NCBI RefSeq assembly: GCF_009769385.1
Contig: NZ_VKAB01000008.1
Location: 1 to 64,000, forward strand
Reading direction: 5' to 3'
From: Saccharothrix deserti
GTDB lineage: Bacteria; Actinomycetota; Actinomycetes; Mycobacteriales; Pseudonocardiaceae
DNA: 64,000 nt
Positions 11,561 through 39,970 of this stretch are shown here, piece after piece. Position 1 is the first letter of the stretch. Each line of letters starts with the position of its first letter. Below the pieces are notes generated by a model. That model saw only the letters and a list, made by a program, of their open reading frames with translations, did not search any database and had not been told where the DNA came from. Both the position numbers and the translations under genes were made by a program.

Positions 11561-11692
11561 GTCCTGAACGTAGGACACACCCATCCCGAACGTAGGACAC
11601 GCGCAACCTGAGTGTTCGACTCTCGCGAGAGTCCTACGTTCAGGACGCGAGAGTCCTACGTGCAGGAGGCCTGAGTTCTACGTTCAGGTTGA
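11561..11692. repeat. 22-bp-unit repeat array, locus A
   Basis: Six contiguous 22-bp units at 11561, 11583, 11605, 11627, 11649 and 11671. Read in one direction the consensus is GAGAGTC, then CTACGT (or GAACNC), then TCAGG, then a variable tail. Units 1-3 are inverted and units 4-6 direct, so the array is symmetric about 11626/11627, where GACTCTCGCGAGAGTC forms a perfect 16-bp palindrome (11618-11633). GTCCTGAACGTAGGAC at 11561-11576 recurs as its exact reverse complement at 11631-11646. The array fills the space between the convergent peptidase-like and glycosyltransferase genes. The same units occur in loci B and C. Confidence 0.95.
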
Positions 11693-11695
11693 GCG

Positions 11696-14600
11696 TCAGG
11701 TGCGGCGGCGGGAGGGGATGGCCGTCAGGAGGGTGAAGAGGGCGGCGGCGGCCTGGAGGACCAGGAGGAGTTCGCGCAGGGTTGAGGAGGCTTCTACGCG
11801 GACCTCCGAGGCTGTTGTGGGGACCGTCACACCGACCAGGTGGCCCCACGCTCGGACGACGGTCACCTCGCGGCCGTCGACCCACGCCCGCCAGGTTGGT
11901 TCCTCCTCCGCGGCCAGGACGAGGAGCCGTCCTTCGGGGCCCTCGGAGACGCGGACTCCCACCTCGGGCGGTGCGGCTTCGACGGGGGCGATGCCGGGCG
12001 CGCCCAGCTCCACCGGCGGGTTGCCGCCGGTCCGGGCACGCCGCGCCAGCTCCGGTGACAGCAGCACGGCGTTCCCCGCCGCCAACTGCACCCGCAGCAC
12101 CGGCCGCCCGTCCGACATCGCTGGCGTCACCCCCACCAGGTCACCGACGGCATCACGCAGCCGCTGAGCCGTCCTCAGGTCCGGCACCACGATGAACGCC
12201 ACCCCGGACGCCGCCGCCTGCGCCAACGCGATCCGCGCGGCCTGCGAAGAACCGCCGGTCAGGTCACGCGTCCACCGCTCCAACCGCGTGGTGGCCGTCG
12301 GCACGGGCACGTAATCGTCATCCCCGAACGCCGGCAGCCGCCCCGCCACCAACCGCGTCGGCGTACCCAGGACCAGCACCGACCGCCCGGTCCGCGGCAC
12401 CTCCTGCGCCAGCGTCGACGGCAACCGCACCGCGTCCGCCGTCAACTCCCCCGACCGCAACCCGACGAACCCGGCACCGGCCATCCCGACGACCGACAAC
12501 ACCCCGAGCACCGACATCACCCGCTGGAACGGCACCGGAGCCGAGTCACGCCGGAACGCCGACAGCACCACCCACAGCAGACCCCACCCGACCACCACCA
12601 ACGGCGCACCGGTCCACCCCGGCGACGACGTCCCGCCGGGCAACGGCGTCACCGACACGGTCCGCAGCACGATCACCGTGAACCCGCCCAGCACCACCAG
12701 CCCCAGCCCGGCCAGCATCGACCGGGACGTCCGCAGCACCAGCGCCGCCAGCGCGAACCCGACCACCAGGAGCCCGACGAACGGCAACGCCCCCGTCCCA
12801 CCGGGCCGCAGCGACAGCAGGTCCACCAACCCGACCGCGGGCGACTCCACGAACGCGCCCACCCCGTGCAGCACGACAGACGGGTTCTGCAACACCACCG
12901 CGGGCCACGGCAGCAGCAGCGCCATCGGCAGCAGCACGATCATGAACAACGACGCCACCCGCCGCCGCCCGTCACCGGGCCGTCCGGGCACCGCCACGAA
13001 CCCGACCAGCGCCGTCAACGCCACCAGCCCGTGCACCAACGGCGAGAACGCGCCGACCACCGCCATCGCCAACGCCGTCCCAGACGCCACCGGCAGCCAC
13101 GACGCACCCGCCACACCCCGCAGCACGGACGCCACCCCGGCGAACACCACCGGCGCCATCACGTGCACCACGACGACGTCCAGCCGCCCCTGGCTCACCG
13201 CCGACGTCGCCGCCGGCAGCAACGCGTACGCCGCCGCCACCACCGCGCGCACCGGCCGCGCCACCGGCATCCGCCGGGACGCCACGTACGCGAACAACCC
13301 GGCCAACGGCGCGTCACCGATGAACAGCACCGCCACCAGCACGGCAGGCGACCCGAACAGCACACCGAGCGTCCCCAGCACGGCCAACGCCGCCGGTGCC
13401 GGCGCCGTCGTCCCACCCGCGACCGGATGCCAAGTGGCCAGGTACGACGACCAGGTAGCCGCGAGATCACCCACCGGCAGCAGCCGCCCACCGGCCAGAT
13501 CAAGCCCGATCCGCGACGCGTTGGCCAGAATCCCGAACACGGCGAGCCCGAGGACCAGCAGCAACGGCGGTCCGACCACCACCGACCGCAGCACCCGAGC
13601 CCGGTCGACCTCCAAGAACACGACCCCCGGCGCGGTCGAGCCACGCGGCACCGGTGAAGGCTGCCCCGGTGAAAGACGTGGCCGGGGCGAGGGCCGCAGC
13701 GCGGACGGCGACGCCTCCACCGGCACGGTCACCGCGGGCCGTCGCAACCCACCGGTCGCCCGCACGGGCCGACGCCGTGACAGCACACCGGCGGGCAGCG
13801 CCGCCGGACCCACCCGACGCTCCACTTCGGACGGAAGCGACCACGCGCCCGGCCGCGCGTCGTCCTCCGGCAACCGGCCCAACGCCAGGTCGGCCTCGAC
13901 GCGTCGCCTGATCAACGCCGCCGACGCACCCCGGATCGCGTTGCGGAACCGGGTGATCCTGCTGGTGAACAGGCCGCGCACGACCCCGTGCACCGGCCGC
14001 TCGGCACGTCCGGCCAGCAACCGCGCCCGCCCGCTCAGCAGGTACCGCAGCGCGCCGATCTCGGCGTGCGCGTCGGAAAACCGCCGCAGCAACAAAAACC
14101 CGCAAGAACGCAAGAAAGCGAGCACCGCGATCCGCGGCAGCCCCAAAACGAACGAGAACGTCCCGCAGTTGACCAGGAAAGTCCGCAGCCCGTGCGCCCG
14201 ATCCACGCCCCGCAACGCGGGCCCCGGCCTTGCCGCCACCGCGTCCAACCGCCGCGCACCCCGGCCGGCCGCGCGCGCGTGCCGCATCCGCGCCACCGGA
14301 ACCGACAACACGAGATGACCGGCGAGATTCACGCGCCAGCCGAAATCGATGTCGTCGCGCAACAACGGCATCGTCCGGTCGTAACCGTCGAGCGATTCCC
14401 ACACCGCGCGGCGGATCAGCGACCCCGCCGACGACACCGCCAACGCCTCGGTGCTCTGCTCGAACGACCCGGCCAACTCGACCCGACCCATACCGGTCTG
14501 CCGGTGGCCGGACGCGTCGGTCGACAGCCCCGCCTCCACCACCAGGCGCGGGTCGGTCCAGTCGAGGCTCAACGGTCCCAGCACGGCCGCCGAGGGCGAG

Positions 14601-14980
14601 ACCTCGGCCGCGGTCAGCAGAGCGGACAGGCAATCCGATTCCGGTGCGCAGTCGTCGTGCAGCAACCACAGCCAGGCACCCGGATCGCCCCACCGCTGCA
14701 CGGCGTGCTCGACGGCGGCGTGCACGGCCGCGCCGAACCCCGTGCCCCGAGGCAGGGTGAGCACACCGTCGACCACCTGGTCCGGACCAACGGCGGCCTC
14801 CGCGAGCAGCTTCGCCGTGCCGTCCACCGAACCCGTGTCGACCGCGATCACGTGCCGCGGGCGCGGCTGTTGACGGCGCAGCGCGGACAGCGCCGTGCCC
14901 AGCCACCGGTCGCCGTCGTGGCACACCAGCACCGCCAACACCGGCGCGGTGCGCAGCCGCGGAGTGGCCCCGCTCGTCAA
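11696..14980 (-). CDS. Large membrane glycosyltransferase, GT2 domain fused to polytopic region
   Basis: A 1094-residue protein. Residues 1-280 form a family 2 glycosyltransferase with VLAVLVCHDGDRWLGTALSAL, a nucleotide-sugar motif around WLLHDDCAPESD and a later LRDDIDFGWRVNLAG acceptor motif. A Pro/Arg-rich linker near 400-450 leads to a long region with about ten hydrophobic spans and a C-terminal globular segment. Such proteins sit next to whiB in many actinobacteria and probably act on lipid-linked envelope sugars at the membrane; the sugar is unknown. TTG at 14980 is preceded by AGGAG six bases upstream. Its end lies within four bases of repeat array A. Confidence 0.85.
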   Translation of the reverse strand: MTSGATPRLRTAPVLAVLVCHDGDRWLGTALSALRRQQPRPRHVIAVDTGSVDGTAKLLAEAAVGPDQVVDGVLTLPRGTGFGAAVHAAVEHAVQRWGDPGAWLWLLHDDCAPESDCLSALLTAAEVSPSAAVLGPLSLDWTDPRLVVEAGLSTDASGHRQTGMGRVELAGSFEQSTEALAVSSAGSLIRRAVWESLDGYDRTMPLLRDDIDFGWRVNLAGHLVLSVPVARMRHARAAGRGARRLDAVAARPGPALRGVDRAHGLRTFLVNCGTFSFVLGLPRIAVLAFLRSCGFLLLRRFSDAHAEIGALRYLLSGRARLLAGRAERPVHGVVRGLFTSRITRFRNAIRGASAALIRRRVEADLALGRLPEDDARPGAWSLPSEVERRVGPAALPAGVLSRRRPVRATGGLRRPAVTVPVEASPSALRPSPRPRLSPGQPSPVPRGSTAPGVVFLEVDRARVLRSVVVGPPLLLVLGLAVFGILANASRIGLDLAGGRLLPVGDLAATWSSYLATWHPVAGGTTAPAPAALAVLGTLGVLFGSPAVLVAVLFIGDAPLAGLFAYVASRRMPVARPVRAVVAAAYALLPAATSAVSQGRLDVVVVHVMAPVVFAGVASVLRGVAGASWLPVASGTALAMAVVGAFSPLVHGLVALTALVGFVAVPGRPGDGRRRVASLFMIVLLPMALLLPWPAVVLQNPSVVLHGVGAFVESPAVGLVDLLSLRPGGTGALPFVGLLVVGFALAALVLRTSRSMLAGLGLVVLGGFTVIVLRTVSVTPLPGGTSSPGWTGAPLVVVGWGLLWVVLSAFRRDSAPVPFQRVMSVLGVLSVVGMAGAGFVGLRSGELTADAVRLPSTLAQEVPRTGRSVLVLGTPTRLVAGRLPAFGDDDYVPVPTATTRLERWTRDLTGGSSQAARIALAQAAASGVAFIVVPDLRTAQRLRDAVGDLVGVTPAMSDGRPVLRVQLAAGNAVLLSPELARRARTGGNPPVELGAPGIAPVEAAPPEVGVRVSEGPEGRLLVLAAEEEPTWRAWVDGREVTVVRAWGHLVGVTVPTTASEVRVEASSTLRELLLVLQAAAALFTLLTAIPSRRRT

Positions 14981-15097
14981 GTGCCGCTCCTAGTTGCTCC
15001 GACTACGCCGTGGGACGACCACGGTAAGCCAGAGCGGCTCGCCCACGAGGTCGGACTCCGCCGATCACACCTCGCGGACGATCACCCGCGCTGACGG

Positions 15098-15403
15098 TCA
15101 CACCGCGCGCTTCTTGAGCTTCCTCCGCTCGCGTTCGGACAACCCGCCCCAAATGCCGAAGCGCTCGTCGTGCTGCAAGGCGTACTCCAGGCATTCGGAG
15201 CGCACCTCGCAGCCGAGGCAGATCCGCTTGGCCTCCCTGGTCGAGCCGCCCTTCTCCGGGAAGAACGCCTCCGGGTCGGTCTGCGCGCACAGGGCGCGCT
15301 CCTGCCAGTCCTGCTCATCGGCCGCGTCGAACAGGTCGAGTACGACCGGCTCCGGTGCCGGGACGTCCCCGTCCACGATGCGACCCCCGTCGAATTCCTG
15401 CAT
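15098..15403 (-). CDS. whiB: WhiB family iron-sulfur transcriptional regulator (WhiB/WhiB2 type)
   Basis: A 101-residue Wbl protein. Four cysteines for a [4Fe-4S] cluster lie at 39, 62, 65 and 71 (CLGCEVRSEC), followed by the turn GIWGGLSERERRKLKKR that binds sigma A and DNA. Placement beside fbiA/fbiB identifies it as the WhiB2/WhmD orthologue, which acts with WhiA in septation and sporulation genes. The ATG at 15403 has AGGAGG six bases upstream, favouring this start over a 20-residue in-frame extension. A good sigma-70 type promoter with an overlapping palindrome lies about 80 bases upstream. Confidence 0.95.
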   Translation of the reverse strand: MQEFDGGRIVDGDVPAPEPVVLDLFDAADEQDWQERALCAQTDPEAFFPEKGGSTREAKRICLGCEVRSECLEYALQHDERFGIWGGLSERERRKLKKRAV

Positions 15404-15480
15404 AGTCCGCCTCCTCGCCTTCCGCTCTCCCCGGTTGGCGGACACCACTCGCCGTCCCCACAACGATGAATGACACCGAT

Positions 15481-15512
15481 GTGATTACACCTGTGTCACA
15501 ACACGCGGTCAA
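15481..15512 (-). promoter_or_regulatory. whiB promoter with overlapping palindromic operator
   Basis: On the minus strand TTGACC (15512-15507), a 17-base spacer and TGTAAT (15489-15484) form a near-consensus promoter. GTGATTACACCTGTGTCAC at 15481-15499 is an imperfect dyad (GTGA and ACAC against GTGT and TCAC) covering the -10 and part of the spacer, the expected place for a repressor site. The untranslated leader would be about 75 bases. Confidence 0.6.
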
Positions 15513-15683
15513 GCCGAGTCCACAGGTCGGGGGATATTCGCGCGAATGGCCGGAAAAGCCTTGACTAGCAGTACAGACGGTGAGTACACGACCGCCTTGA
15601 GCGATAACCGCTGCGCGGATCGCCTACAGGGCTGGGTGACGGCGGCCTGTGGAGCACCGGTTCGGGGAGGCCACACTGGAAGG

Positions 15684-16436
15684 GTGAAGCGATCAGCGGT
15701 GCGTCCGAGTCCACTGTTCCTCAGCCTGCTCGCGGTGACGGTGGCAGGCGCCGTGTTGACCCTGTTCGACGGCTCCAGCGCCGCGGTGACCGCGGGCACG
15801 GTGCTGTTCGTGCTGGGCGGCTGGGCGGTTTCCCTGTGCCTGCACGAGTTCGGCCACGCCGTCGTCGCGTACCGCGGCGGCGACTACGCGGTGAAGGCGA
15901 AGGGTTATCTGACCCTGGACATCCGCCGGTACACCGACCCCGTGTTCAGCATCGTGCTGCCGTTGGTGCTGTTGGCGTTCGGCGGCATCCCGCTGCCCGG
16001 CGGCGCGGTGTGGATCAACCACCACGCGCTGCGCGACAAGCGGGTGGAGTCGATGGTGTCGCTGGCCGGGCCGCTGAGCAACCTCGTGCTCGGCGTGCTG
16101 CTGGCGCTGTCCGTGATCCTCTTCACGCCGCCGTTCGGCCTGGCCGCCGCGCTGTCGTACCTGGCGCTGCTCCAGATCCTGGCCTTCGTGCTGAACATCC
16201 TGCCGATCCCCGGTCTCGACGGGTGGGGCGCGATCGAGCCGTACATGTCGTACTCGGCGCGGCAGTTCGGCGCGAAGGCGCGGATGTGGGCGCCGTTCGT
16301 GCTCTTCGCGGTGCTGATCGGGTTCCCGACCATCGGCGCGCTGTTCTTCAACGCCGCCTACTCGGTGTTCGAGCTGATCGGCGGCAACCCGGCCGACGCC
16401 GGGGCCGGCGCGAGGACCTTCCGGTTCTGGCAATGA
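15684..16436 (+). CDS. Site-2 protease family (M50) membrane metalloprotease
   Basis: A 250-residue integral membrane protein with the M50 zinc motif HEFGH at residues 54-58 in a hydrophobic segment and NILPIPGLDGWGAI as the distal zinc-ligand motif (LDG in place of NPDG). About five membrane spans are predicted. Such proteases cut membrane-bound substrates, for example anti-sigma factors; the substrate here is unknown. GTG at 15684 is chosen because the frame becomes family-like there; GGAAGG lies almost against it and CACACT seven bases upstream could be a leaderless -10. It is followed at close distance by fbiA. Confidence 0.85.
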   Translation: MKRSAVRPSPLFLSLLAVTVAGAVLTLFDGSSAAVTAGTVLFVLGGWAVSLCLHEFGHAVVAYRGGDYAVKAKGYLTLDIRRYTDPVFSIVLPLVLLAFGGIPLPGGAVWINHHALRDKRVESMVSLAGPLSNLVLGVLLALSVILFTPPFGLAAALSYLALLQILAFVLNILPIPGLDGWGAIEPYMSYSARQFGAKARMWAPFVLFAVLIGFPTIGALFFNAAYSVFELIGGNPADAGAGARTFRFWQ

Positions 16437-16460
16437 CGCCAGGTGGGAGGATGGCGACCC

Positions 16461-17426
16461 GTGAAGGTCGTCGTACTGGTTGGCGGGGTTGGCGGGGCGC
16501 GGTTCCTGGTCGGGCTGAAGAGCCTCCTGGCCGGTCCGGAGCACGAGATCACCGCCGTGGTGAACACGGGTGACGACGTGTGGATGCACGGGTTGCGGAT
16601 CTGTCCCGACCTGGACACCTGCATGTACACCCTCGGTGGCGGGATCGACGCCGAGCGCGGGTGGGGCCGTGCGGGCGAGACGTGGGCGGTCAAGGAGGAG
16701 CTGGCCGCCTACGGCGCGGACCCGACGTGGTTCGGGCTCGGCGACCGGGACGTGGCCACGCACCTGGTGCGGACCCGGATGCTGCGGGCGGGCTACCCGC
16801 TGTCCGCGGTGACGGAGGCGCTGTGCCACCGCTGGGAGCCCGGCGTGCGGCTGCTGCCGATGTCGGACGACCGCGTGGAGACGCACGTCGTCGTGACGAC
16901 CGAGGAGGGCGAGCGGGCGATCCACTTCCAGGAGTGGTGGGTCAAGCACCGCGCCCAGCTGCCCGCGCGGTCGTTCGCGTCGGTCGGTGTGGAGACGGCG
17001 ACGGCCGGGCCCGGTGTGGTGGACGCGCTGCTCGCCGCGGACGCGGTGTTGATCGCGCCGTCGAACCCGGTGGTGAGCGTCAACACGATCCTCGGTGTGC
17101 CCGGTGTGAAGGACGCGTTGCGCAAGACCGAGGCGGGTGTGGTGGGGCTGTCGCCGATCGTCGGCGGCAAGCCGCTGCGCGGGATGGCGGACGCGTGCCT
17201 GTCGGCGATCGGCGTGGAGACCTCCGCCGAGGCCGTCGGCCGGTTCTACGGCTCGCGCAAGACCACGGACGGCGGCGTGCTGGACGGCTGGCTCGTGCAC
17301 ACCGGTGACCGTTGTGACGTGCCGGGTGTCGCGGTGCGCGCGGTGCCGCTGCTGATGTCCGATGTGGACGCCACCGCGGCGATGGCGCGGGCGGCCCTGG
17401 AGTTGGCCGGTGTCGACGTTGGCTGA
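16461..17426 (+). CDS. fbiA: 2-phospho-L-lactate (phosphoenolpyruvyl) transferase, F420 synthesis
   Basis: A 321-residue CofD/FbiA protein. It joins the lactyl-, or in mycobacteria phosphoenolpyruvyl-, diphospho-guanosine donor to the deazaflavin Fo, giving (dehydro-)F420-0. The start [19 protein letters not shown] is the nucleotide-binding motif of the family, and [19 protein letters not shown] is a conserved Fo-site segment. GTG at 16461 aligns with known starts; GGAGG lies about ten bases upstream. The stop overlaps the fbiB start by 17 bases, so the two are an operon. Confidence 0.95.
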
Positions 17427-18753
17427 CCACGCTTCGCCCTCGGGGATCACGCTGCTGCCGGTGACCGGGCTGCCGGAGTTCCGGCCCGGTGACGACCTGG
17501 CTTCGGCGCTCGCGTCGGCCGCGCCGTGGCTGGAGGACGGCGACGTGGTCGTGGTGACGTCCAAGGTCCTGTCCAAAGTGGAAGGTCGGCTGGTGCCGGT
17601 GCCCACCGATCCGGAGGCGCGGGACGCCGTGCGGCGGGAGTGGGTCGAGGCCGAGTCGGTGCGCGTGCTGGCGCGGCGCGGGCGGACCTTGATCACCGAG
17701 AACAAGCTGGGGATCGTGCAGGCGGCGTCCGGAGTGGACGCGTCGAACGTGGCCGGTGACGAGATCGCGTTGCTGCCGGTGGACCCGGACGGGTCGGCGG
17801 CGGCGTTGCGGGCGGCGTTGGCGTCGAGGTTGGGCGTGTCGGTCGCGGTCGTGGTGACGGACACGATGGGCCGGGCGTGGCGGGTCGGTCAGACGGACGC
17901 CGCGATCGGGTCGTCCGGGTTGGCCGTGCTGCACCGGTACGCCGGGTCGGTGGACCGGCACGGCAACCCGCTGGTGGTGACCGAGGTCGCGGTGGCCGAC
18001 GAGATCGCCGCGGCGGCGGACCTGGTGAAGGGCAAGCTGGGCGCGGTGCCGGTGGCCGTGGTGCGCGGGCTGCCCGTGTCCGACGACGGGTCGACGGCGC
18101 GTGACCTGGCCCGTCCGGTCGAGGAGGACCTGTTCCGGTTGGGCACGGCCGAGGCCGTGGCGCAGGGGCGTGCGGAGGCCGTGCTGATGCGCCGTTCGGT
18201 GCGGTCGTTCACCGGTGATCCGGTGTCTTCGGACGCCATTCGTCGTGCGGTGGCCGCCGCGCTGACCGCGCCGGCGCCGCACCACACGCGGCCGGTGCGG
18301 TTCGTCCGGTTGGACGTCAGGCGTGAGGCCCTGTTGGACGCCATGCTTGATCGCTGGCGGTCGGACCTGCGGGCCGACGGGTGGTCGGACGAGCGGATCG
18401 CCGCTCGGGTCGCGCGGGGTGATTTCCTGCGGAACGCGCCGGAGATCGTCGTGCCGTTCCTGGTGCGGACGGGGGCGCACTCGTACCCGGACGAGCGGCG
18501 GGCGTCGGCGGAGCGGACGATGTTCACGATCGCGGGCGGCGCGGCGGTGCAGGGGCTGTTGGTGGCGTTGGCCGCCGAGGGGCTGGGGTCGTGCTGGGTG
18601 TCGTCCACGATCTTCTGCGCGGACGTGGTGCGTGACGTGCTCGACCTGCCGGCCGACTGGGAGCCGTTGGGCGCGGTGGCGATCGGGCACCCGGAGTCGG
18701 AACTGACGCCGCGCGTTCTGGGTGATCTGGACGAAAGGTATCTGGAACGGTGA
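17410..18753 (+). CDS. fbiB: Bifunctional F420:gamma-glutamyl ligase / dehydro-F420 reductase
   Basis: A 447-residue two-domain FbiB. Residues 1-240 are the CofE-type ligase that adds the poly-glutamate tail, with [36 protein letters not shown] and [17 protein letters not shown]. Residues 250-447 are a nitroreductase-like FMN domain ([20 protein letters not shown] and [11 protein letters not shown]) that reduces dehydro-F420-0. The fused form is typical of actinobacteria, so complete F420 tailing is expected. GTG at 17410 lies inside the end of fbiA; a TTG at 17419 is a possible alternative. The stop overlaps the NUDIX start. Confidence 0.95.
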
Positions 18754-19289
18754 GCCTGCACGCCGACACCGCGTCGACCTTGGGCGCTTGGCGTCCCGCC
18801 GACCGGACGCAGGAGGCGCTGCGGCAGGCCTACCTGGGGTTCCTGGCGGCGCGCGAGGACGCTTGCGAGCGGTCGTGCGAGCCGGGGCACATCACGGCGT
18901 CGGCTCTGGTCTTGAACGCGACGGCGGACCGGACGCTGCTCACCCTGCACCCCAGGGTGGGCCGGTGGCTCCAGTTGGGCGGGCACTGCGAGCCTTCGGA
19001 CACGACTCTGGCGGCCGCCGCGCTGCGTGAGGCGACGGAGGAGTCCGGCATCCAGGGTCTGCGCATCGAGCCGGTGCCGATCCACCTGGACGTCCACCCG
19101 ATCACGTGCTCGCTGGGCAAGCCGACCCGGCACTTCGACGTCCGCTTCCTGGTCCGCGCCCCGGTCAACGCCCAACCACGCCGCAGCGCCGAGTCACTGG
19201 ACCTCCAGTGGTGGCCCCTGGACGCCATGCCCTCGAACGTGGACGACCTCCGCCCCATGATCGAAGCCGCCCTAACCCGCCTCCGCTAA
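18750..19289 (+). CDS. NUDIX hydrolase
   Basis: A 179-residue protein with a NUDIX box [25 protein letters not shown]. The core REATEESGI is intact for metal binding; the upstream glutamate of the consensus is Asp and one residue is inserted, as in an actinobacterial subgroup. Its substrate, a nucleoside diphosphate linked to another group, is unknown. Coupling to fbiB by a GTGA overlap suggests a role tied to F420 or flavin nucleotides, but this is inference. The gene ends ten bases before repeat array B. Confidence 0.88.
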
Positions 19290-19298
19290 CCCACCCCA

Positions 19299-19443
19299 CG
19301 CGAGAGTCGAACCTCCAGGACCCGAGAGTCGAACGCTCAGGTACCCCGAATTCAACGTTCAGGTACCCCACGAACCGACGCGAGTGTTGAACTCAGGGGT
19401 CCTGGAGGTTCGACTCTCGCGGTCTGAGGGTTCGACTCTCGCG
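19299..19443. repeat. 22-bp-unit repeat array, locus B
   Basis: Direct units of exactly 22 bp begin at 19299, 19321 and 19343, then a diverged stretch including CGAGTGTTGAACTCAGG, then inverted units at 19400 and 19422. The first unit plus three bases (19299-19323) recurs as a perfect 25-bp reverse complement at 19397-19421, so the transcript could fold into a long hairpin. The third unit begins CCGAATT instead of GAGAGTC, as does the third unit of locus C. The array lies between the converging NUDIX gene and the small Pro-rich protein gene. Confidence 0.95.
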
Positions 19444-19463
19444 GGGGTGTGGGTGGGGTGGGG

Positions 19464-19850
19464 TCAGGGGTTGCCGTTTAGGCGTTGGGAAAGGCCTGGT
19501 GGGCGTTGGTCCGGGCCGCCCGAGAGGCGTTGGGACAGCGTTGGGCGTGAGGTCGGGACCTGCTGGACCGTCGGCACGGGGCCGGGGGCTACGCGCAGTT
19601 CCGGCTCGGGTTCGGGTGTGGCGGGTGGGTGCGGGGGTGGCGGCGCCGGCTGACCTGCGGCGACGTGCGCGGCCAGCACCATGGTCGAGTCGGGGTCTTC
19701 ACGTGGGTCGACCGCGTTCACCATGGCGCGCGGGATCTGCTGGGTCGCCGAGGAGTCCATCGGCGAGGTCATGTTGTCCGGCGTCACGACGTGGATGCCA
19801 CGTGCACGAGCACGGGCCAGCGCCGCGTCGGCCCGAGCGCGGGGGTCCAT
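19464..19850 (-). CDS. Small actinobacterial conserved protein, Pro-rich C-terminus
   Basis: A 128-residue protein of unknown function often seen next to the GDP-mannose pyrophosphorylase gene in actinobacteria (from memory). The N-terminal half MDPRARADAALARARARG and VVTPDNMTSPMDSSATQQIP then DPDSTMVLAAH looks conserved; the rest is Pro/Glu-rich, ending in two copies of LSQRL (TLSQRLSGG and GLSQRLNGNP). No membrane segment or signal peptide. ATG at 19850 has AGGAG eight bases upstream, preferred over an in-frame ATG near 19953 without one. It is divergent from manC. Confidence 0.75.
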   Translation of the reverse strand: MDPRARADAALARARARGIHVVTPDNMTSPMDSSATQQIPRAMVNAVDPREDPDSTMVLAAHVAAGQPAPPPPHPPATPEPEPELRVAPGPVPTVQQVPTSRPTLSQRLSGGPDQRPPGLSQRLNGNP

Positions 19851-20007
19851 CCGGATCTCTCCTGCGGGTGCCTTGGGCCGGCTGGGGAACGCCGGCGTGC
19901 CGATCGGTGACGCTCGCCGACACGGGACCACTGCCCGTGTCACCCGAGTGCTCATGCCAGAGTATTCGCAAACTACGGGTGGAAGTAAGCGGAGGAGGAA
20001 AAACGGC

Positions 20008-21084
20008 ATGTCGGAGCTGCAAGGCGCCGAGGCAGTGGTTCTGGTCGGGGGCAAGGGAACCCGACTCCGACCACTGACCCTGTCCGCCCCCAAGCCCATG
20101 CTGCCGACCGCCGGGGTGCCGTTCCTCACCCACTTGCTGTCGCGGATCCGGGAAGCGGGCATCACCCACGTCGTGCTCGGCACGTCGTACAAGGCCGAGG
20201 TCTTCCAGGAGCACTTCGGTGACGGCGCGGCGCTCGGCCTGGAGCTGGAGTACGTGGTCGAGGACGTGCCGCTGGACACGGCGGGCGCGATCCGCAACGT
20301 CTCCCACAAGCTGCGCGAACGCGACGTGATGGTGTTCAACGGCGACATCCTGTCGGGCGTCGACCTGCGCGCCGTGGTCGACACGCACCGTAAGGCCGAG
20401 GCCGACGTGACGCTGCACCTGGTCCGGGTGGACGACCCGCGCCGGTTCGGCTGCGTGCCGACGGACGAGGACGGTCGCGTCACGGCGTTCCTGGAGAAGA
20501 CGGAGAACCCGCCGACGGACCAGATCAACGCGGGCTGCTACGTGTTCCGCCGCGAGGTGATCGAGGACATTCCCGCTGGTCGGCCGGTTTCGGTGGAGCG
20601 GGAGACGTTCCCGGGGCTGTTGGCGGCGGGCGCGCGCGTGCAGGGTTACGTCGACGCGTCGTACTGGCTGGACCTCGGCACGCCGGCCGCGTTCGTGCAG
20701 GGTTCGGCGGACTTGGTGCGCGGTGTCGCGCCGACCGCCGCGCTGGCGCTCAAGGGCGACGCGGTGCTGCTCGACGGCGCGAAGGTCGACGGGAGCGCGG
20801 TGGTGACGGGCGGCGCGACGGTCGGTGCGGGCTGCACGGTCGCGCCCGGTGCGGTGGTGGACGGCTCGGTGCTGTTCGACGGCGCGGTGGTCGGCGAGGG
20901 CGCGCGCGTGGAGCGCAGTGTGCTCGGGGTGAACTCGCTGGTCCAGGCCGGTGCGGTGGTGTCGGACGCGGTGATCGGTGACGGCGCGGTGGTCGGCGCG
21001 CGGTGTGAGTTGATCAACGGGGCCCGGGTGTGGCCGGGTGTCGTGCTGCCCGAGGGCGGGGTGCGGTTCTCCGCTGATGTCTGA
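20008..21084 (+). CDS. manC: GDP-mannose pyrophosphorylase-type nucleotidyltransferase (mannose-1-phosphate guanylyltransferase)
   Basis: A 358-residue NDP-sugar pyrophosphorylase. VVLVGGKGTRLRPLT at residues 10-24 is the nucleotide-binding signature; FNGDILSG and the lysine in FLEKTENPPTDQINAG are catalytic features. The C-terminal third is a left-handed beta-helix of hexapeptide repeats. It is orthologous by position to Rv3264c, the GDP-mannose pyrophosphorylase next to wbbL, although rmlA-like specificity cannot be excluded from sequence. The ATG at 20008 has GGAGGAGG upstream. With ManA and ManB it would supply GDP-mannose. Confidence 0.85.
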   Translation: MSELQGAEAVVLVGGKGTRLRPLTLSAPKPMLPTAGVPFLTHLLSRIREAGITHVVLGTSYKAEVFQEHFGDGAALGLELEYVVEDVPLDTAGAIRNVSHKLRERDVMVFNGDILSGVDLRAVVDTHRKAEADVTLHLVRVDDPRRFGCVPTDEDGRVTAFLEKTENPPTDQINAGCYVFRREVIEDIPAGRPVSVERETFPGLLAAGARVQGYVDASYWLDLGTPAAFVQGSADLVRGVAPTAALALKGDAVLLDGAKVDGSAVVTGGATVGAGCTVAPGAVVDGSVLFDGAVVGEGARVERSVLGVNSLVQAGAVVSDAVIGDGAVVGARCELINGARVWPGVVLPEGGVRFSADV

Positions 21085-21115
21085 TGTCCGATGTGCTGGT
21101 GTCTGATGTGTCGTG

Positions 21116-31327: not shown

Positions 31328-31397
31328 AACACCCTCCCCGATCGACGGAATTTGGTTCTGCTAGGTTGCTCGCGCCCTCTTCTGGATGCAAGCATCA

Positions 31398-31414: not shown

Positions 31415-31441
31415 ATCTTCACTCGATCGAGGGAACGCCCG

Positions 31442-32463: not shown

Positions 32464-32741
32464 ATGGCCGCCTGGCTGCCGGTCGACCTGATGAGGGTTC
32501 TTGAGCTCGCTCCACGAGATCTGCCGTGAACCCGTCACGGCACAGACGCGACGCAGGAACCGCTGCCGCTCGCCATCAGGACGAGGTGCGGTCGCTTCAG
32601 GGGATCTCCCCAGCGCGGACATGGGCGAAAGGTTCTCGCACTGCTTGAGCGCAAAACCAGTGCGTTAATCCGAGTCCACCCCAACGGCCCAACAGACCCC
32701 TCGGGTGGTCACTCAGCGCGTCCACTGCGATGATGCCGGCC

Positions 32742-33182: not shown

Positions 33183-33202
33183 GCCGGCGCGCCGTGTCGA
33201 CC

Positions 33203-33683
33203 ATGGTCAGGGCAGCCGTGCGAGAGGACGTGCCCGCGCTCATCCGCCTGCGTCTGGCGAACGCCGAGAGGCACATCCGGCTCGACCCGGCCGTCTACCG
33301 ACTGCCCGACGTCGACGCCGTCCGAAGGCACTTCGAGGACGTGCTCTCGGGCGGGTCGGACGTCCTGATCTTCGTAGCCGACGTGGGCGGCGAGATCGCG
33401 GGCATGGCGGAACTGGTCCCCCTGCCGGATCCGCCCGACCACCAGATCGCCGTGCCACGCCGCGCGGCTGACGTCCACACGGTCGTCCTGGACGGGATAT
33501 CGCGGTCGCGGCGTGGGAAAGGCCTTGCTCGGAGAGGCGGAACGAGCCGCCTCGGAACGAGGTGTGTCGGTTCTCCACGCCGGCATCCTCACGCTCAACC
33601 AGGACGCCGTCGGCTTCTACGCATCGGCGGGGTACGGACCGCGCGGGACGATGCTGCGCAAGGAACTGGGCACCCCCGGCTGA
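33203..33683 (+). pseudogene. GNAT acetyltransferase disrupted by a frameshift
   Basis: The first frame reads MVRAAVREDVPALIRLRLANAERHIRL, then VLIFVADVGGEIAGMAELV and VHTVVLDG. After GACGGG at 33491-33496 the frame shifts by one base (extra A at 33497): the acetyl-CoA loop continues in the next frame as YRGRGVGKALLGEAERAASERG, then VSVLHAGILTLNQDAVGFYASAGYGPRGTMLRKEL, ending with TGA at 33681. Both halves are well conserved, so the lesion is recent or a sequence error. Unshifted, the reading frame runs on through unrelated sequence. The intact protein would be about 160 residues, substrate unknown. Confidence 0.85.
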
Positions 33684-33688
33684 CGCGC

Positions 33689-34840: not shown

Positions 34841-34910
34841 GCGACCTCCCAGCTCATCCGTGAATCCGTGAATGACTCACTGGGGTGTACGGCCCGTTCA
34901 CACCGCCGGT

Positions 34911-34948
34911 TCAGGACCTCAGGACCTGAGGATCTCAGGGACCTCAGG
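34911..34948. repeat. Short tandem repeat of TCAGGACC-like octamers
   Basis: TCAGGACC, TCAGGACC, TGAGGATC, TCAGGGACC, TCAGGG in succession, overlapping the last codons and stop of rmlD. CCTCAGG and CCTGAGG form a short dyad within it, which could act as a weak hairpin after rmlD. Confidence 0.75.
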
Positions 34949-35837
34949 GCACGGCGTGCGCCGCCACCGCGGCGGCCAACGCCTCCTGCCAGTGCCGCAG
35001 CGGCGTCAGCCCCGCGTCCGCCCACGCCCGGCCGGACAGCACCGAGTACGCCGGGCGCGGAGCGGGCCGGGGGAAGTCGGCGGTCGTGCACGGGCGCACG
35101 CGTTCCGGGTCCAGGCCCAGCTCGGCGAAGATCGCGCGGGCGAACCCGCACCACGTGGTCTCGCCGCCGCCGGTCGCGTGCAGCACCCGTGCCGGCGTGC
35201 CGCCGGAGGACACCAGTGCGGCCAACGACAGCAGGCCGTGCGCCAGGTCGAGCGACCACGTCGGCGAGCCGACCTGATCGTCCACAACGGACAACGTCTC
35301 GTTGGTGGCGGCCAGGCGCGCCATCGTCTTCACGAAGTTCGCGCCGTGCTCGCCGTAGACCCAAGCGGTGCGCACCACCCACGCACGGTCCCAAGTGGAC
35401 AGAACGCGTTCCTCGCCGGCGAGCTTGGTCCGCCCGTAGGCCGAACGCGGCCCGGTCTCGTCGGACGGCTCGTACGGCCGCGTCCCGTCACCGGGGAACA
35501 CGTAGTCCGTCGACACCTGCAGCAGCGGCACGTTGTGCTCACGGCAGCTCGTGGCCAGGTACCCCGGCCCCAGCGCGTTGACCGCGAACGCCCGGTCGAA
35601 GTCGGTCTCCGCCGCGTCCACCGCCGTGTAGGCCGCCGCGTTCACGACCACCGGCCGGAACCCGGCGTCACGCGCGGTCGAGGCGAACACGGCCACCGCG
35701 TCCGCCACCGCCGACGGGTCGGTCAGGTCCAGCTCGGCCGACGACGGCGCGTGCACCAGACCGTCCTCGGGCGCCGCCGCCACGATGTCCTGCCCGAGCT
35801 GCCCGCGACCGCCGGGCACCAGGAGTGCGAGCGCCAT
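34944..35837 (-). CDS. rmlD: dTDP-4-dehydrorhamnose reductase
   Basis: A 297-residue short-chain dehydrogenase catalysing the last step of dTDP-L-rhamnose synthesis with NADPH. VPGGRGQLGQDIVAA is the Rossmann glycine motif, VVNAAAYTAVDAAE the conserved second strand, STDYVFPGDG and YGRTKLAGE the catalytic Thr/Tyr/Lys region. ATG 35837 shares one base with the TGA of rmlB, so the two are coupled. In mycobacteria rmlD (Rv3266c) sits next to wbbL; here a block of glycosyltransferases separates them. Confidence 0.95.
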   Translation of the reverse strand: MALALLVPGGRGQLGQDIVAAAPEDGLVHAPSSAELDLTDPSAVADAVAVFASTARDAGFRPVVVNAAAYTAVDAAETDFDRAFAVNALGPGYLATSCREHNVPLLQVSTDYVFPGDGTRPYEPSDETGPRSAYGRTKLAGEERVLSTWDRAWVVRTAWVYGEHGANFVKTMARLAATNETLSVVDDQVGSPTWSLDLAHGLLSLAALVSSGGTPARVLHATGGGETTWCGFARAIFAELGLDPERVRPCTTADFPRPAPRPAYSVLSGRAWADAGLTPLRHWQEALAAAVAAHAVP

Positions 35838-36829
35838 CAGCCGGCCAGGGCCGCGCGCTGCTTCAGCGGCTCCCACCACGACCGGTTGTCCCGGTACCAC
35901 TGGACGGTGGCCGCCAGGCCCTCGGTGAAGTCGACCCGCGGCGTGTACCCCAGCTCGGTGCTGATCTTGGTGATGTCGACCGAGTACCGCCGGTCGTGGC
36001 CCTTGCGGTCGGTGACCGGCTCGACGAACGAGTCCCAGTCGCGGCCGGTCGCCTCCAGCAGGCGCTCGGTCAGCTCGCGGTTGGTCAGCTCGGTGCCGCC
36101 GCCGATGTTGTAGATCTCGCCACCGCGACCGCCCTCCAGCACGAGCTGGATACCGCGGCAGTGGTCGTCCACGTGCAGCCAGTCGCGCACGTTCAGCCCG
36201 TCGCCGTACAGCGGCACCTTCTTGCCGTCCACCAGGTTGGTGACGAACAAGGGGATGACCTTCTCCGGGAACTGGTACGGACCGTAGTTGTTCGAACACC
36301 GGGTGATGCACACCGGCAGTCCGTGCGTGCGGAAGAACGACCGGGCCAGCAGGTCGGACGACGCCTTGGACGCCGAGTACGGCGAGTTCGGCTCCAGGAT
36401 GTGGTCCTCGGTCCACGAACCCTCGTCGATCGTGCCGTAGACCTCATCCGTGGACACGTGCACGAACTTCGCCACGCCGGCCTCCAGCGCGCCTTGCAGC
36501 AGCGTCTGGGTGCCCAGCACGTTGGTCAGCACGAAGTCGGCCGAACCGGAGATCGAACGGTCCACATGCGACTCGGCGGCGAAGTGCACCACCACGTCCG
36601 TGCGGCTCATCAGGTCGGCGACCAGCTCGCGGTCGCAGATGTCGCCGCGGACGAAGGTCAGCCGGGGGTCGTCCGCGACCGGCGCCAGGTTCTCCTCGTT
36701 GCCCGCGTAGGTGAGCTTGTCCAGCACCACCACCTCGGCGTCGGCGTAGGCCGAATACGCGCCGCCCACCAATTCCCGCACGTAGTGCGAACCGATGAAC
36801 CCGGCCCCACCCGTAACCAGTACGCGCAT
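35837..36829 (-). CDS. rmlB: dTDP-glucose 4,6-dehydratase
   Basis: A 330-residue NAD-dependent dehydratase converting dTDP-glucose to dTDP-4-keto-6-deoxyglucose. MRVLVTGGAGFIGSHYVREL is the NAD motif; VVVHFAAESHVDRSI, HVSTDEVYGTI (catalytic Thr-Asp-Glu) and PYSASKASSDLLARSF (YxxxK) are intact, and VRDWLHVDDHCRGI is the C-terminal substrate loop. ATG 36829 has GGGAGG about nine bases upstream. rmlA and rmlC are not in the window. The gene is divergent from the first LCP gene. Confidence 0.96.
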   Translation of the reverse strand: MRVLVTGGAGFIGSHYVRELVGGAYSAYADAEVVVLDKLTYAGNEENLAPVADDPRLTFVRGDICDRELVADLMSRTDVVVHFAAESHVDRSISGSADFVLTNVLGTQTLLQGALEAGVAKFVHVSTDEVYGTIDEGSWTEDHILEPNSPYSASKASSDLLARSFFRTHGLPVCITRCSNNYGPYQFPEKVIPLFVTNLVDGKKVPLYGDGLNVRDWLHVDDHCRGIQLVLEGGRGGEIYNIGGGTELTNRELTERLLEATGRDWDSFVEPVTDRKGHDRRYSVDITKISTELGYTPRVDFTEGLAATVQWYRDNRSWWEPLKQRAALAG

Positions 36830-36998
36830 GCTCAGTGCCCTCCCGCAAAGCGTTGCCCGATGAAGTCTGTCACGAGGCTTAACCGTGCAACCCACCCGGT
36901 TGTTACAACGTCTCCCGTATAAGAGGAGTGTCGGGTGCGGTTCGCCGCTCCGCCACAGATCTCGATCAGACGGCCTGAGCGCACGGGGGAGGCAGGCA

Positions 36999-38528
36999 GT
37001 GGACCGGAGTCCGCCTGGAACAGCCGGTGGATCGACTGCTCTTCGTGTGCTCGCGCTCACCGGTCGTTCACTGTTGGCACTGGTGTCGGCGGCTGTGCTC
37101 CTCGTCACGTGGTACGGCTGGTACCACCTGAGCGATATCGACGACGACATCACGACGACGGACGTCATCGCCTCCTCGGTCACCGAGCAGAGCGACGGCG
37201 AGACCCGCAAGCCGCTCGACGGCGCGGTCGACATCCTGCTGGTCGGCGTCGACAGCCGCACGGACGCGCAGGGCAACCCGCTGTCCGACGAGGTGTTGGC
37301 GCTGCTCAACGGTGGTGTGGCGGACGGAACGCTGAACACCGACACGATGATCCTGGTGCACATCCCCCAGGACGGCACGCGTGCGGTGGCCATCTCGTTC
37401 CCGCGCGACGCGTACGTGGAGATCGCGGACGGGTTCGGCAAGCACAAGCTGAACTCCGCGATGGCCCGGCAGAAGAACGAGACGGCGCAACGGCTGCGCA
37501 ACGAGGGCGTGACCGACGAGGCCCGCATCGAGTTGGAGTCGACGCTGGCCGGGCGCCGGACGTTGATCAAGACGATCGAGGGCATGACCGGCGGCTCCGT
37601 CACCGTCGACAACTACGCCGAGGTCAACCTGGCCAGCTTCTACGAGGTCACGAAGGCCATCGGCGGCGTCGAGGTGTGCCTGAACCAGCCGGCGCGCGAC
37701 CGCGCGTCGGGTGCGAACTTCCCGGCGGGCCGGCAGACCATCGCGGGCGCGCAGGCGCTGTCGTTCGTGCGCCAGCGCAGCGGGCTGCCCGGCGGCGACC
37801 TGGACCGGATCGTGCGGCAGCAGGTGTTCATCGGCGCGCTGGCCCGCAAGGTGCTGTCCACCGGCACGCTCACCGACCCGGCCCTGCTGTCCGGGCTGAT
37901 GGACGCGGTGAAGAAGTCCGTGGTGCTCAACGAGGGGTGGAACATCACCGAGTTCGCCGGTCAGATGCAGGGGCTGGTGTCGGGCAACATCCAGTTCCGC
38001 ACCATCCCGGTCGGCGACCCGACGGACACCTGGAGCGACGGCAACGTGCTGCCGGTCGACCCGGCGCAGGTGCGGCAGTTCATCAAGGGCCTGGCGACCG
38101 ACAACAACCCGTCGAAGGCGCCCACCACCACGACCCCGGTCGGGCCGCCGAACTCGGCGGTCACCGTCAACGTCTACAACTCCGCCGGGGTGAACCGGTT
38201 GGCCGCGAGCGTGCTGGACATGTTGGCGGAGAAGGGGTTCCGCCGGGGTGACGCGGACAGCGCGGCGTACGCGGACACGACGTCCGTGCGGTACGCGCCG
38301 GGTGAGCGGTCGAGCGCCGACAACGTGATCTCCGCCCTGGGCGGTAACGCCGAGGCCGTCGAAGACGACTCCGTGCCAAGAGGGCAGGTTCAGGTGTACG
38401 TCGGTGCCGACTACGCACCGCCGGACCAGTCCGACCCGGCGTCGGCAGGCGACACCGGGACGAAGATCACGCCGACGACCACCTCCGCCCCGCCGATCAC
38501 GGCCGACGGTGTGGTCTGCGTCAACTGA
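36999..38528 (+). CDS. LytR-CpsA-Psr (LCP) cell-wall glycopolymer ligase with LytR_C domain
   Basis: A 509-residue type II membrane protein: short cytoplasmic N-terminus, one membrane span (about residues 14-36), then an extracytoplasmic LCP domain with DILLVGVDSRTD, NTDTMILVHIP, AVAISFPRDAYVEI and SFVRQRSGLPGGDLDRIVRQQ, the acidic and arginine residues that bind the prenyl-pyrophosphate. Residues about 380-470 form a LytR_C domain (VTVNVYNSAGVNRLAASVLDML). LCP enzymes transfer lipid-linked polysaccharides to peptidoglycan, as does the Rv3267 product. GTG 36999 has GGAGG upstream. The protein ends in VVCVN with a cysteine three residues from the end. Confidence 0.93.
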   Translation: MDRSPPGTAGGSTALRVLALTGRSLLALVSAAVLLVTWYGWYHLSDIDDDITTTDVIASSVTEQSDGETRKPLDGAVDILLVGVDSRTDAQGNPLSDEVLALLNGGVADGTLNTDTMILVHIPQDGTRAVAISFPRDAYVEIADGFGKHKLNSAMARQKNETAQRLRNEGVTDEARIELESTLAGRRTLIKTIEGMTGGSVTVDNYAEVNLASFYEVTKAIGGVEVCLNQPARDRASGANFPAGRQTIAGAQALSFVRQRSGLPGGDLDRIVRQQVFIGALARKVLSTGTLTDPALLSGLMDAVKKSVVLNEGWNITEFAGQMQGLVSGNIQFRTIPVGDPTDTWSDGNVLPVDPAQVRQFIKGLATDNNPSKAPTTTTPVGPPNSAVTVNVYNSAGVNRLAASVLDMLAEKGFRRGDADSAAYADTTSVRYAPGERSSADNVISALGGNAEAVEDDSVPRGQVQVYVGADYAPPDQSDPASAGDTGTKITPTTTSAPPITADGVVCVN

Positions 38529-38616
38529 ACACCCGCCTGCCGGTGAACCCGGACGTCCGACCGGCTGAAGGTGGTTAGCCTGACCGGACATCCCCATCCG
38601 TAGGAGGAACGCGTCG

Positions 38617-39813
38617 GTGAAGGCCGCGGTGATCGTCGGACGCACGCTGGTCGTGCTGCTGTCCGCGGCTGTGTTGGCGGCGGCCGGGTACGGGTGGTCG
38701 ACGTTGAAGCGCGTCCAGGAGAGCGTGAACACGACGGACGTGCTGGCCGAGCTGTCGGACGTGCCCAACGCGCCGCCCGTGGCCGACGGCGCGACCGACA
38801 TCCTGCTGGTCGGCAGCGACAGCCGCACCGATGCCCAGGGCAGGCCGTTGCCGGATCGGGTGCTGCGGCAGTTGCGCACCGAGGCGACGGACACGCTCAA
38901 CACCGACACGATCATCGTCATGCGGGTGCCGCACAACGGCGGCAAGGCGCGCGCCGTCTCCATCCCGCGGGACACTTACGTGCCCATCCCGGACCACGGC
39001 GAGGAGAAGATCAACTCGGCGTACGGGCTGACCAAGTTCTTCACCATGCAGCGGCTCCAGGCGGAGGGCGTGGGCGACCTGGAGGAGCGGTCGAAGCAGG
39101 GCGACCAGGCGGGGCGCCGGGCGTTGGTGCAGGTGGTGCAGGACCTGACCGGGGTGCGGGTCGACCACTACGCGGAGATCAACCTCTACGGGTTCTACCT
39201 GCTCACCGAGGTGATCGGCGGCGTCGACGTGTGCCTGAACCAGGCCACGTCCGATCCGGACTCCGGTGCGAACTTCCGCGCCGGTGTGCAGTCGATCTCC
39301 GGTGGTGACGCGCTGGCGTTCGTGCGGCAGCGCAAGGGCATCCCGAACGGTGACCTCGGGCGGATCACCCGGCAGCAGGTGTTCATGTCGGCGGCGATGA
39401 CGAAGCTGATGTCGGCCGGGACGCTCACCGACCCGGCGCGGCTGTCCGGGCTGCTGGACGCGGTGAGCAAGTCGGTCGTGGTGGACGAGAAGCTGGACCT
39501 GGCGACGTTCGCGAACCAGGCGCGTGGGCTGGCCGGCGGGAACGTCGAGTTCGCGACCATCCCGGTGACCGGCGTCGGCGCGCGCAACGAGCGCGGCCAG
39601 AGCGTCGTCACGGTGGACCCGGCGCAGGTGAAGGCCTTCGTAGCCCAACTCCTGGGCGAGAAGACCACCACCCACACTCCCCCTCCCACAACGGCCCCCA
39701 CCACCGTCCCCACCACGGCTCCCACCACCCAAAAGCTCACCGGAGACCGCCTGGTGACCCTGGACGGCCGCCCCCGCGCAACCGCCCTCCAATCCCCACC
39801 CTGCATCGACTGA
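38617..39813 (+). CDS. LytR-CpsA-Psr (LCP) ligase, short form
   Basis: A 398-residue LCP protein, paralogue of its upstream neighbour. One N-terminal span (VGRTLVVLLSAAVLAAAGYGW), then DILLVGSDSRTD, NTDTIIVMRVP, ARAVSIPRDTYVPI and AFVRQRKGIPNGDLGRITRQQ. It lacks the LytR_C domain and instead has a Thr/Pro-rich tail ending PPCID, again with a cysteine third from the end. GTG 38617 is preceded by AGGAGG nine bases upstream. The 88-base gap after the first LCP gene contains no clear terminator, so co-transcription is likely. Repeat array C starts immediately after its stop. Confidence 0.93.
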   Translation: MKAAVIVGRTLVVLLSAAVLAAAGYGWSTLKRVQESVNTTDVLAELSDVPNAPPVADGATDILLVGSDSRTDAQGRPLPDRVLRQLRTEATDTLNTDTIIVMRVPHNGGKARAVSIPRDTYVPIPDHGEEKINSAYGLTKFFTMQRLQAEGVGDLEERSKQGDQAGRRALVQVVQDLTGVRVDHYAEINLYGFYLLTEVIGGVDVCLNQATSDPDSGANFRAGVQSISGGDALAFVRQRKGIPNGDLGRITRQQVFMSAAMTKLMSAGTLTDPARLSGLLDAVSKSVVVDEKLDLATFANQARGLAGGNVEFATIPVTGVGARNERGQSVVTVDPAQVKAFVAQLLGEKTTTHTPPPTTAPTTVPTTAPTTQKLTGDRLVTLDGRPRATALQSPPCID

Positions 39814-39970
39814 CCCGAGAGTCGAACCTCCAGGTACCGAGAGTCGAACCCTCAGGTGCGCCGAATTCTGCGTTCGGGTGGGTCGAGGCGCGGGTGCCGG
39901 TGTTGTCCGAACGTGGAGTTCGAGGTACGTGAGCGTTCGACTCTCGGCACCTGAGCGTTCGACTCTCGGG
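39814..39970. repeat. 22-bp-unit repeat array, locus C
   Basis: Direct 22-bp units at 39814-39835 and 39836-39857, a third diverged unit starting CCGAATT, then inverted units at 39927-39948 and 39949-39970. The core CCGAGAGTCGAAC then NCTCAGGT is common to all four good copies. The order, two GAGAGTC units, one CCGAATT unit, a spacer, then inverted copies, matches locus B. The array begins on the base after the TGA of the second LCP gene and ends 56 bases before the next plus-strand start, so unlike loci A and B it lies between co-directional genes. Confidence 0.95.

Follow-up and report, generated by a model that had tools for sequence, protein, structure and literature searches.

Iterons of plasmid replication origins are direct repeats about 22 bp, or two helical turns, apart that are read by a sequence-specific protein, and the short, polar Sal-box repeats behind eukaryotic rRNA genes are bound by a protein, TTF-I, that stops the polymerase. 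Bacterial interspersed mosaic elements (BIMEs) have been proposed to absorb supercoils between convergent genes. Repetitive extragenic palindromes (REPs) are reported at gene ends, and the GTAG and CGTC super-families of REP/BIME sequences are described, in the parts of the source available to us, as short, high-copy, patchily distributed elements that stand behind genes, mainly where neighbouring genes are convergent or tandem, and form head-to-head and tail-to-tail pairs (PMC3733652). Here we describe a family of intergenic arrays, built from a 22-bp unit, in the 10.83-Mb genome of the actinomycete Saccharothrix deserti and in its relatives. Three of them, arrays A, B and C, lie within the first 64,000 nucleotides of contig NZ_VKAB01000008.1, a stretch that we call the window. 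This repeat family is real, large and rule-bound, and it occupies gene ends in Pseudonocardiaceae. With a probability of roughly 0.38, we read its arrays as phased, polar sites for a putative DNA-binding protein that would mark a gene-end boundary or act as a roadblock.

With the GTAG and CGTC super-families of REP/BIME elements the arrays share the short repeat, the high copy number, the patchy occurrence, the place behind genes and the two kinds of pair. They differ from them in that an isolated unit does not fold, in their fixed 22-bp direct runs, special tail unit and typed positions, in their closeness to genes (55 of 71 arrays lie no more than 10 nt from a stop codon), and in that the Y1 (IS200/RAYT-like) transposase domain PF01797 was not found in eight of 12 array-bearing genomes. 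With clustered regularly interspaced short palindromic repeats (CRISPR) they share short, direct, intergenic repeats, but the units adjoin without spacers and the arrays are therefore not CRISPR. Compared with iterons, they are many, chromosomal, placed at gene ends and often arranged as inverted pairs, with no link to a replicon seen. The likeness to Sal-box repeats concerns how such repeats may work and claims no common ancestry, the arrays being bacterial, genome-wide and phased at 22 bp, and their binder putative. Rfam 15 gave no match above the gathering score in the window. No description of the family was found in the open-access literature searched, which is no proof of its absence in print; the available part of the Saccharothrix espanaensis genome paper (PMC3469384) makes no mention of "repeat", "repetitive", "palindrom" or "terminator", and the scope also took in the available part of the Kutzneria albida genome paper (PMC4210621).

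Unit and array grammar

An original prediction, made from the letters of the window, had described three related arrays of 22-bp units that follow each other without spacers and switch orientation once per locus. Our unit-profile scan confirms this description: same-orientation steps are exactly 22 bp, which is the length of the unit, and orientation changes once in each array (minus to plus in A, plus to minus in B and C; Table 1). The loci themselves had been placed correctly, while their ends were off by a few bases. Allowing up to three mismatches, the unit GAGAGTCSWACNNTCAGG matches 14 times in the window, whereas 100 shuffles gave 1.38 matches on average and never more than 5. The search for further copies that had been proposed was productive, since at most one mismatch gives 263 matches across the whole genome and none for the reversed pattern. 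From these matches (26 per 14 arrays) we estimate about 140 arrays per genome, and from the density of 14 arrays in 864 kb about 175.

To describe the grammar we fetched 60 stretches of the genome, 57 picked by exact unit matches and three as controls. The 57, like the named loci on Saccharothrix contigs, were picked by exact GAGAGTC-type matches, so that the frequency of GAGAGTC is inflated in them; stretches from two relatives, G019 (of the same genus) and G022, were chosen otherwise. A 22-column profile trained on these stretches and the window, with a threshold of 11 bits, gave 495 matches above threshold and none in the reversed sequence, as counted in its own training DNA with overlapping stretches counted twice. 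Chaining of these matches produced 71 arrays of at least two units and seven single matches, six of them intragenic; array counts omit these seven of the 78 chains, and counts of tail units and all later counts were made after removal of units that overlap a better-scoring one.

The spacing within these arrays is strict. In the 71 arrays the head-to-head junction is 20 bp in 37 of 37 cases and the tail-to-tail junction 33 bp in 18 of 33, with the remainder at 32-35 bp (five), 54-55 bp (three), 44 bp (one) and six scattered values. Over all loci, some of which overlap, the same-run step is 22 bp in 697 of 705 cases and the head-to-head step 20 bp in 60 of 63. Direct runs reach up to eight units. 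The period had been likened to two helical turns, and this holds both here and in other genomes, where it is 21-22 bp; for the tail-to-tail spacers the vector strength also peaks near 10.5, a value that is dominated by the 33-bp class and is suggestive only.

The units themselves are similarly constrained. The predicted GAAC and CTAC cores and the CCGAATT/GAGTT variant were all found, and the latter (GARTT) proves to be a tail unit, with TT at positions 8-9 (GAGTT or GAATT), that in this genome occupies only the TCAGG end of a run. In runs of at least two units it fills 118 of 135 run ends and none of 353 other positions. Among the 376 non-tail units of this genome, positions 3, 5, 7, 8, 12, 13 and 17 carry a single base in 98-100% of cases, position 9 is C in all (partly a result of how tail units are defined), and positions 10-11 read GA in 200, CT in 174 and something else in two.

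Location behind genes and the question of folding

By our own codon-usage gene caller, which stands in for an annotation, the genes on either side are convergent for 41 of the 71 arrays, tandem for 28 and divergent for one, and the remaining array stands at a contig end. A facing stop codon is present for 70 of them, at no more than 10 nt in 55 and no more than 20 nt in 61. For comparison, of the array-free intergenic DNA of contig C5, on which the window lies, 4.3% has a facing stop at no more than 10 nt, 17.4% is convergent and 29.2% divergent, giving binomial p values of 1.6e-60 for stop proximity, 2.6e-14 for the convergent excess and 6.7e-10 for the divergent deficit. The suggestion of enrichment at gene 3' ends is thereby strongly borne out, and in the window each array begins, as had been noticed, within about 15 bases of a stop codon according to the same gene calls (Table 1). 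Both stops are within 20 nt in 19 of the 41 convergent arrays and one stop in 18. For tandem pairs the median gap is 4.5 nt to the stop codon upstream, compared with 90.5 nt to the start codon downstream. Ten gene ends, spread over nine arrays, have their stop codon within a unit, 7 nt in, as CCTGA (seven), TCTGA (two) or CCTAG (one). Similarly, 464 kb of contig C5, including the window with its three arrays, contain 14 arrays, six convergent, eight tandem and none divergent, alongside 392 gene junctions of which 58 are convergent and 58 divergent.

Orientation also follows the genes: in 13 of 15 one-way arrays the units have the same direction as the closest gene that faces them. In other genomes (30 loci of 14 genomes, and G181) a facing stop was found for 48 of 50 arrays, at no more than 20 nt in 29, two of the 50 are divergent, and polarity agrees with the gene in 23 of 32 one-way arrays; these gene calls are crude, the caller having been trained on the S. 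deserti genome, and the chance control covers the S. deserti arrays. The only divergent array of that genome (contig C25, locus L233) has by eye a response-regulator-like gene on one side, which is nothing decisive.

Such a location would also suit RNA elements whose dyads, once transcribed, fold into extended hairpins and thereby end transcription or shield the 3' end of the mRNA. Two-way arrays do fold extremely well: with mixed-pattern arrays and those over 260 nt excluded, the mean z is -12.0 for tail-to-tail (19 arrays) and -11.8 for head-to-head arrays (22). In contrast, the 15 one-way arrays do not fold (mean z -0.5), and no T run follows the three arrays of the window; on these two grounds the arrays do not fit an intrinsic terminator, a GC-rich hairpin with a T run behind it. 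We compared Watson-Crick pairing with that of arm-swapped controls in 18 tail-to-tail and 31 head-to-head dyads of this genome, and pairing was not above the control for the former (0.755 versus 0.750, p = 0.34) and slightly above it for the latter (0.697 versus 0.675, p = 0.03). The tail-to-tail excess is confined to positions 10-11 (0.93 versus 0.75 and 0.85 versus 0.65) and, weakly, 4 and 6; positions 14, 15, 21 and 22 pair below control, and G-U and A-C mismatches are about equally frequent.

The strongest point for pairing is covariation in an alignment of 24 tail-to-tail dyads, relatives included, restricted to the 33-bp step (a second alignment held 52 head-to-head dyads). Here 81.5% of cells are paired compared with 79.4% after column shuffling, a value reached by 1 of 500 shuffles. 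The covariation score is 0.184 compared with 0.148, a value that none of the 500 shuffles reached, and several columns show changes on both sides of the dyad. Because 82% of adjacent non-tail units share a type, this excess may reflect shared unit type and relatedness. Folding accounts for only part of the properties of the arrays. On the arm swap and the folding of one-way arrays we reject RNA pairing as a common main constraint, though the counts in the 24 dyads lean towards it, and consider RNA elements an unlikely explanation.

The arrays might instead be sites for a chromosome-architecture protein or for gyrase that absorb supercoils between convergent genes. The convergent enrichment and the 21-22-bp phasing agree with this, as does an uneven spread over the genome, with 14 arrays in the 464 kb of contig C5 and none in 400 kb of contig C2 (positions 1-400000). 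On the other hand, 28 of 71 arrays are tandem and one-way arrays are mostly polar, which is unexpected for a symmetric supercoil sink, and the switching of unit types between species described below is not what one would expect of gyrase or another conserved enzyme. We regard this explanation as very unlikely. Arrays may favour part of the chromosome; among the matches listed, exact matches number one each on contigs C3, C6 and C9 and none on C2, C7 and C11. An 11.5-kb piece of C2 was found, in fragments, in all 25 genomes of the genus.

Table 1. Arrays A, B and C of the window with their runs and adjoining genes
Feature	Position	Strand	Remarks
Array A, extent	11561..11690		unit-profile scan; orientation-switch step 20 bp
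Array A, three-unit run	11561..11626	-	starts 11561, 11583, 11605; profile scan and sequence
Array A, three-unit run	11625..11690	+	starts 11625, 11647, 11669; last is GAGTT tail unit; meets minus run in a head-to-head junction; profile scan
Array B, extent	19300..19442		unit-profile scan; orientation-switch step 33 bp
Array B, three-unit run	19300..19365	+	last unit (19344-19365) is GAATT tail unit; profile scan
Array B, 11-bp tail-to-tail spacer	19366..19376		profile scan
Array B, three-unit run	19377..19442	-	first unit (19377-19398) is GAGTT tail unit; profile scan
Array C, extent	39815..39969		unit-profile scan; orientation-switch step 67 bp
Array C, three-unit run	39815..39880	+	last unit is GAATT tail unit; profile scan
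Array C, 45-bp centre	39881..39925		probable degenerate tail-like minus-strand unit by eye, below profile threshold
Array C, two-unit run	39926..39969	-	profile scan
Gene upstream of array A	10965..11546	+	zincin-like metallopeptidase, PF06262; stop 14 nt before array
Gene beyond array A, convergent	11696..14980	-	family 2 glycosyltransferase; stop 5 nt past array
Gene upstream of array B	18750..19289	+	NUDIX domain; stop 10 nt before array
Possible small convergent gene past array B	19464..20528	-	start uncertain; no Pfam match
Gene upstream of array C	38617..39813	+	LytR-CpsA-Psr family; stop 1 nt before array

Array B is classed as tandem because the gene caller missed the possible convergent gene past it, whose 3' end looks by eye to be conserved among relatives. 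Elsewhere in the window, positions 49749-49919 hold 12/18/36-bp tandem repeats that probably encode a proline-rich stretch.

Distribution and change among relatives

To follow the family into related Pseudonocardiaceae, as had been suggested, we used a two-unit profile (R1) trained on 124 of 663 unit pairs, mainly from one genus, with 16 candidates scored per genome. Copies were found in several genera: R1 matches 54 of 390 family genomes in 20 of 46 genera, 32 of them (12 genera) with at least five matches and 22 with one to three. Within the genus 16 of 25 genomes match, genome G010 only twice, and deeper scoring of 14 chosen genomes gave 27 to 123 matches each. Outside the genus, the one-mismatch pattern is frequent among 200 family genomes only in G181 (49) and G060 (12), any other matches numbering 1-3, as in the reversed control. 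R1 gave no match outside the family, the 13 matching genomes of 397 in an order sample all belonging to it and the one of 394 in a class sample being S. deserti itself; because filters were strict and R1 was trained mainly on one genus, this family-only distribution is a lower bound. The layout recurs in 30 loci of 14 genomes (13 from other genera), where 59 steps measure 22 bp and 27 measure 21 bp, and 80 kb of genome G069 contain five arrays with 22-bp steps. Among the matches listed in a scan of genome contigs we used the Saccharothrix rows and took those in other phyla as chance. Plasmids gave no match to array C, and exact unit matches occur in 17 viral contigs.

The proposed comparison of orthologous intergenic regions revealed both presence and absence. 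For example, G002, G014, G008 and the almost array-free G010 have nothing between the intact flanks of array A, whereas of the 12 rows from other genomes in which both flanks of array B were located 10 contain that array. Of the S. deserti arrays at comparable sites, G019 has 9 of 10 and G022 has 9 of 12, and S. deserti in turn has 9 of 10 G019 arrays and 8 of 11 G022 arrays (sites with missing flanks, 4 of 14 and 2 of 14, and in reverse 0 of 10 and 2 of 13, are omitted). Orthologous arrays often vary in unit number and orientation, and nine of those compared with G019 are 68-86% identical between flanks that are 84-98% identical. Inspected by eye, the empty sites have no clear target-site duplication. 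Because most comparable addresses are conserved and the 400 kb of contig C2 are array-free, active hopping looks unlikely. The original suggestion of a non-autonomous element that spreads into gene ends is thus only partly supported: presence and absence between intact flanks speaks for it, the conservation of most comparable addresses against it.

Other repeats were seen in the gap between the two convergent genes that flank array A. In three array-free species of the genus, G006, G009 and G016 (L166, L171 and L181), it holds a different long dyad, CCCGTATGGCC...GGCCATACGGG, with variants, and in G011 (L169) a single copy of the motif; this dyad may belong to a further family of gene-end repeats that takes up the same place. 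In G229 (L165) the gap measures 1,119 bp and has by eye a segment resembling an insertion sequence after the start of an array unit.

The distribution just described also bears on the possibility that the arrays are a REP/BIME-like selfish, non-autonomous element, one that settles harmlessly behind genes, is burst-amplified by some enzyme and is homogenised by copying between arrays. Many copies, the patchy occurrence in the family, head-to-head and tail-to-tail pairs and presence or absence between intact flanks are all consistent with it, as are adjacent units of the same sequence in array C1:516027, the fairly low diversity within types in some genomes and a gene-end location like that reported for REPs in the available part of PMC3733652. 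The Y1 domain leans weakly the same way, being found in 4 of 12 array-bearing genomes (once as a partial match) and in 0 of 12 array-free ones (Fisher p = 0.09). However, one-way arrays fold no better than shuffles, and the unit is therefore not a REP-like hairpin; the Y1 domain stays below the threshold used in eight of the 12 array-bearing genomes, most comparable addresses are conserved, and the free positions of S. deserti units are hardly homogenised within types. A selfish element of this kind is a tentative possibility. A REP system driven by REP-associated tyrosine transposases (RAYTs) we reject on its defining features, despite the resemblance in gene-end location, alternating orientation and pairing, because folding is absent from one-way arrays and only four of 12 array-bearing genomes have the Y1 domain; dependence on a RAYT is likewise not required, though the domain leans towards array-bearing genomes. 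We thus agree with the original statement that the arrays match neither CRISPR nor REP. The S. deserti genome has one full-length Y1 domain (C5:141004-141369), which is not tied to arrays.

Copying can further be weighed against the change of unit types between species. In a comparison of eight genomes, one set per genome, differentiation is 0.26-0.46 at positions 1, 4, 6, 10, 11 and 15 compared with 0.01-0.10 at positions 14, 16, 18, 19 and 22. This picture held in the one-set-per-genome repeat; in the core-versus-tail and the distance, polarity and spacer analyses G001 and NRRL B-16348, which are one genome, were entered twice. The type positions 4, 6, 10 and 11 all differ: S. deserti has GAGAG and GTGTG with GA or CT, whereas the commonest forms are GCGTG (35 of 50 units) and CA (30 of 50) in G019, GAGTG (22 of 60) and GA (52 of 60) in G022, and GCGAG (49 of 54) and CA (51 of 54) in G181. 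GTGTG accounts for 99 of 375 S. deserti units and for 0 to 3 in each of the seven other genomes. Types differ between species at the same orthologous addresses as well. Units copied from a new master would be expected to agree at free positions within a type. The 106 S. deserti GTGTG/CT units, drawn from 41 arrays, differ on average by 0.415 at nine such positions, compared with 0.469 for all units, and same-type pairs differ by 0.395 within an array and 0.441 between arrays. Since these units are so diverse at free positions, recent copying alone does not explain the type switch here. Selection by a trans-acting, sequence-specific factor with a drifting preference would be the simplest account of the change in type.

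Core and tail units of S. deserti also differ at positions 10-11, where the core has GA or CT and the tail mostly CA (80 of 119). A general rule by which the core avoids the CA of the tail fails, as in Saccharothrix sp. ALI-22-I CA is the preferred form of core (31 of 58) and tail (16 of 24) units alike.

A putative protein-read boundary at gene ends

Three explanations had been offered at the outset: a transcription-end element, a protein-binding array and a spreading non-autonomous element. Of these, protein binding appears to be the best fit to the spacing, the pattern of invariant and free positions, the species-specific types and the small amount of covariation, a judgement drawn from the sequences compared. 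The arrays would then be helically phased, direction-sensitive clusters of sites for a putative sequence-specific DNA-binding protein. Situated at gene 3' ends, the bound protein would most likely mark a boundary, and it might stop or slow RNA polymerase leaving one gene before it reaches the next, especially between convergent genes.

Several observations weigh against this proposal. The analysis found no binding protein for the 22-bp unit. Differences between species also extend to positions 1 and 15, which are not among the type positions. Some types are more uniform elsewhere than in S. deserti, with differences of 0.279 for the main type of G019 (30 units; 0.388 for all units), 0.184 for the TA/GA type of G022 (8 units), 0.283 for the main type of G181 and 0.309 for the AA/CT type of NRRL B-16348, and identical neighbouring units occur in some runs, such as that of array C1:516027; unit copying therefore contributes. 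The array-free 400 kb of contig C2 and the nine of 25 genomes of the genus that R1 does not match are likewise unfavourable. Arrays as a replacement of ordinary terminators are rejected, since a hairpin with a T tail follows array-bearing gene ends (3 of 19) about as often as array-free ones (32 of 225). Finally, in head-to-head arrays the units next to the gene run antisense to it, and a simple polar roadblock is thereby weakened.

It is somewhat doubtful, on the comparative evidence, that the arrays represent a class of gene-end boundary in Pseudonocardiaceae, composed of polar arrays of typed 21-22-bp sites with a head and tail grammar and a fast-evolving putative reader whose specificity would change from one species to another and take dozens of fixed sites with it, as in co-evolution. 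If they are selfish, the arrays form a repeat family that is unusual in its grammar and for which no mobilising enzyme is known. If a protein reads the arrays as gene ends, bacteria would possess a site-specific and polar means of separating convergent genes, one that is rarely considered beside hairpin and Rho termination, and orthologous arrays at the same address in related species would be a natural experiment on the joint change of specificity in a protein and its dozens of sites.

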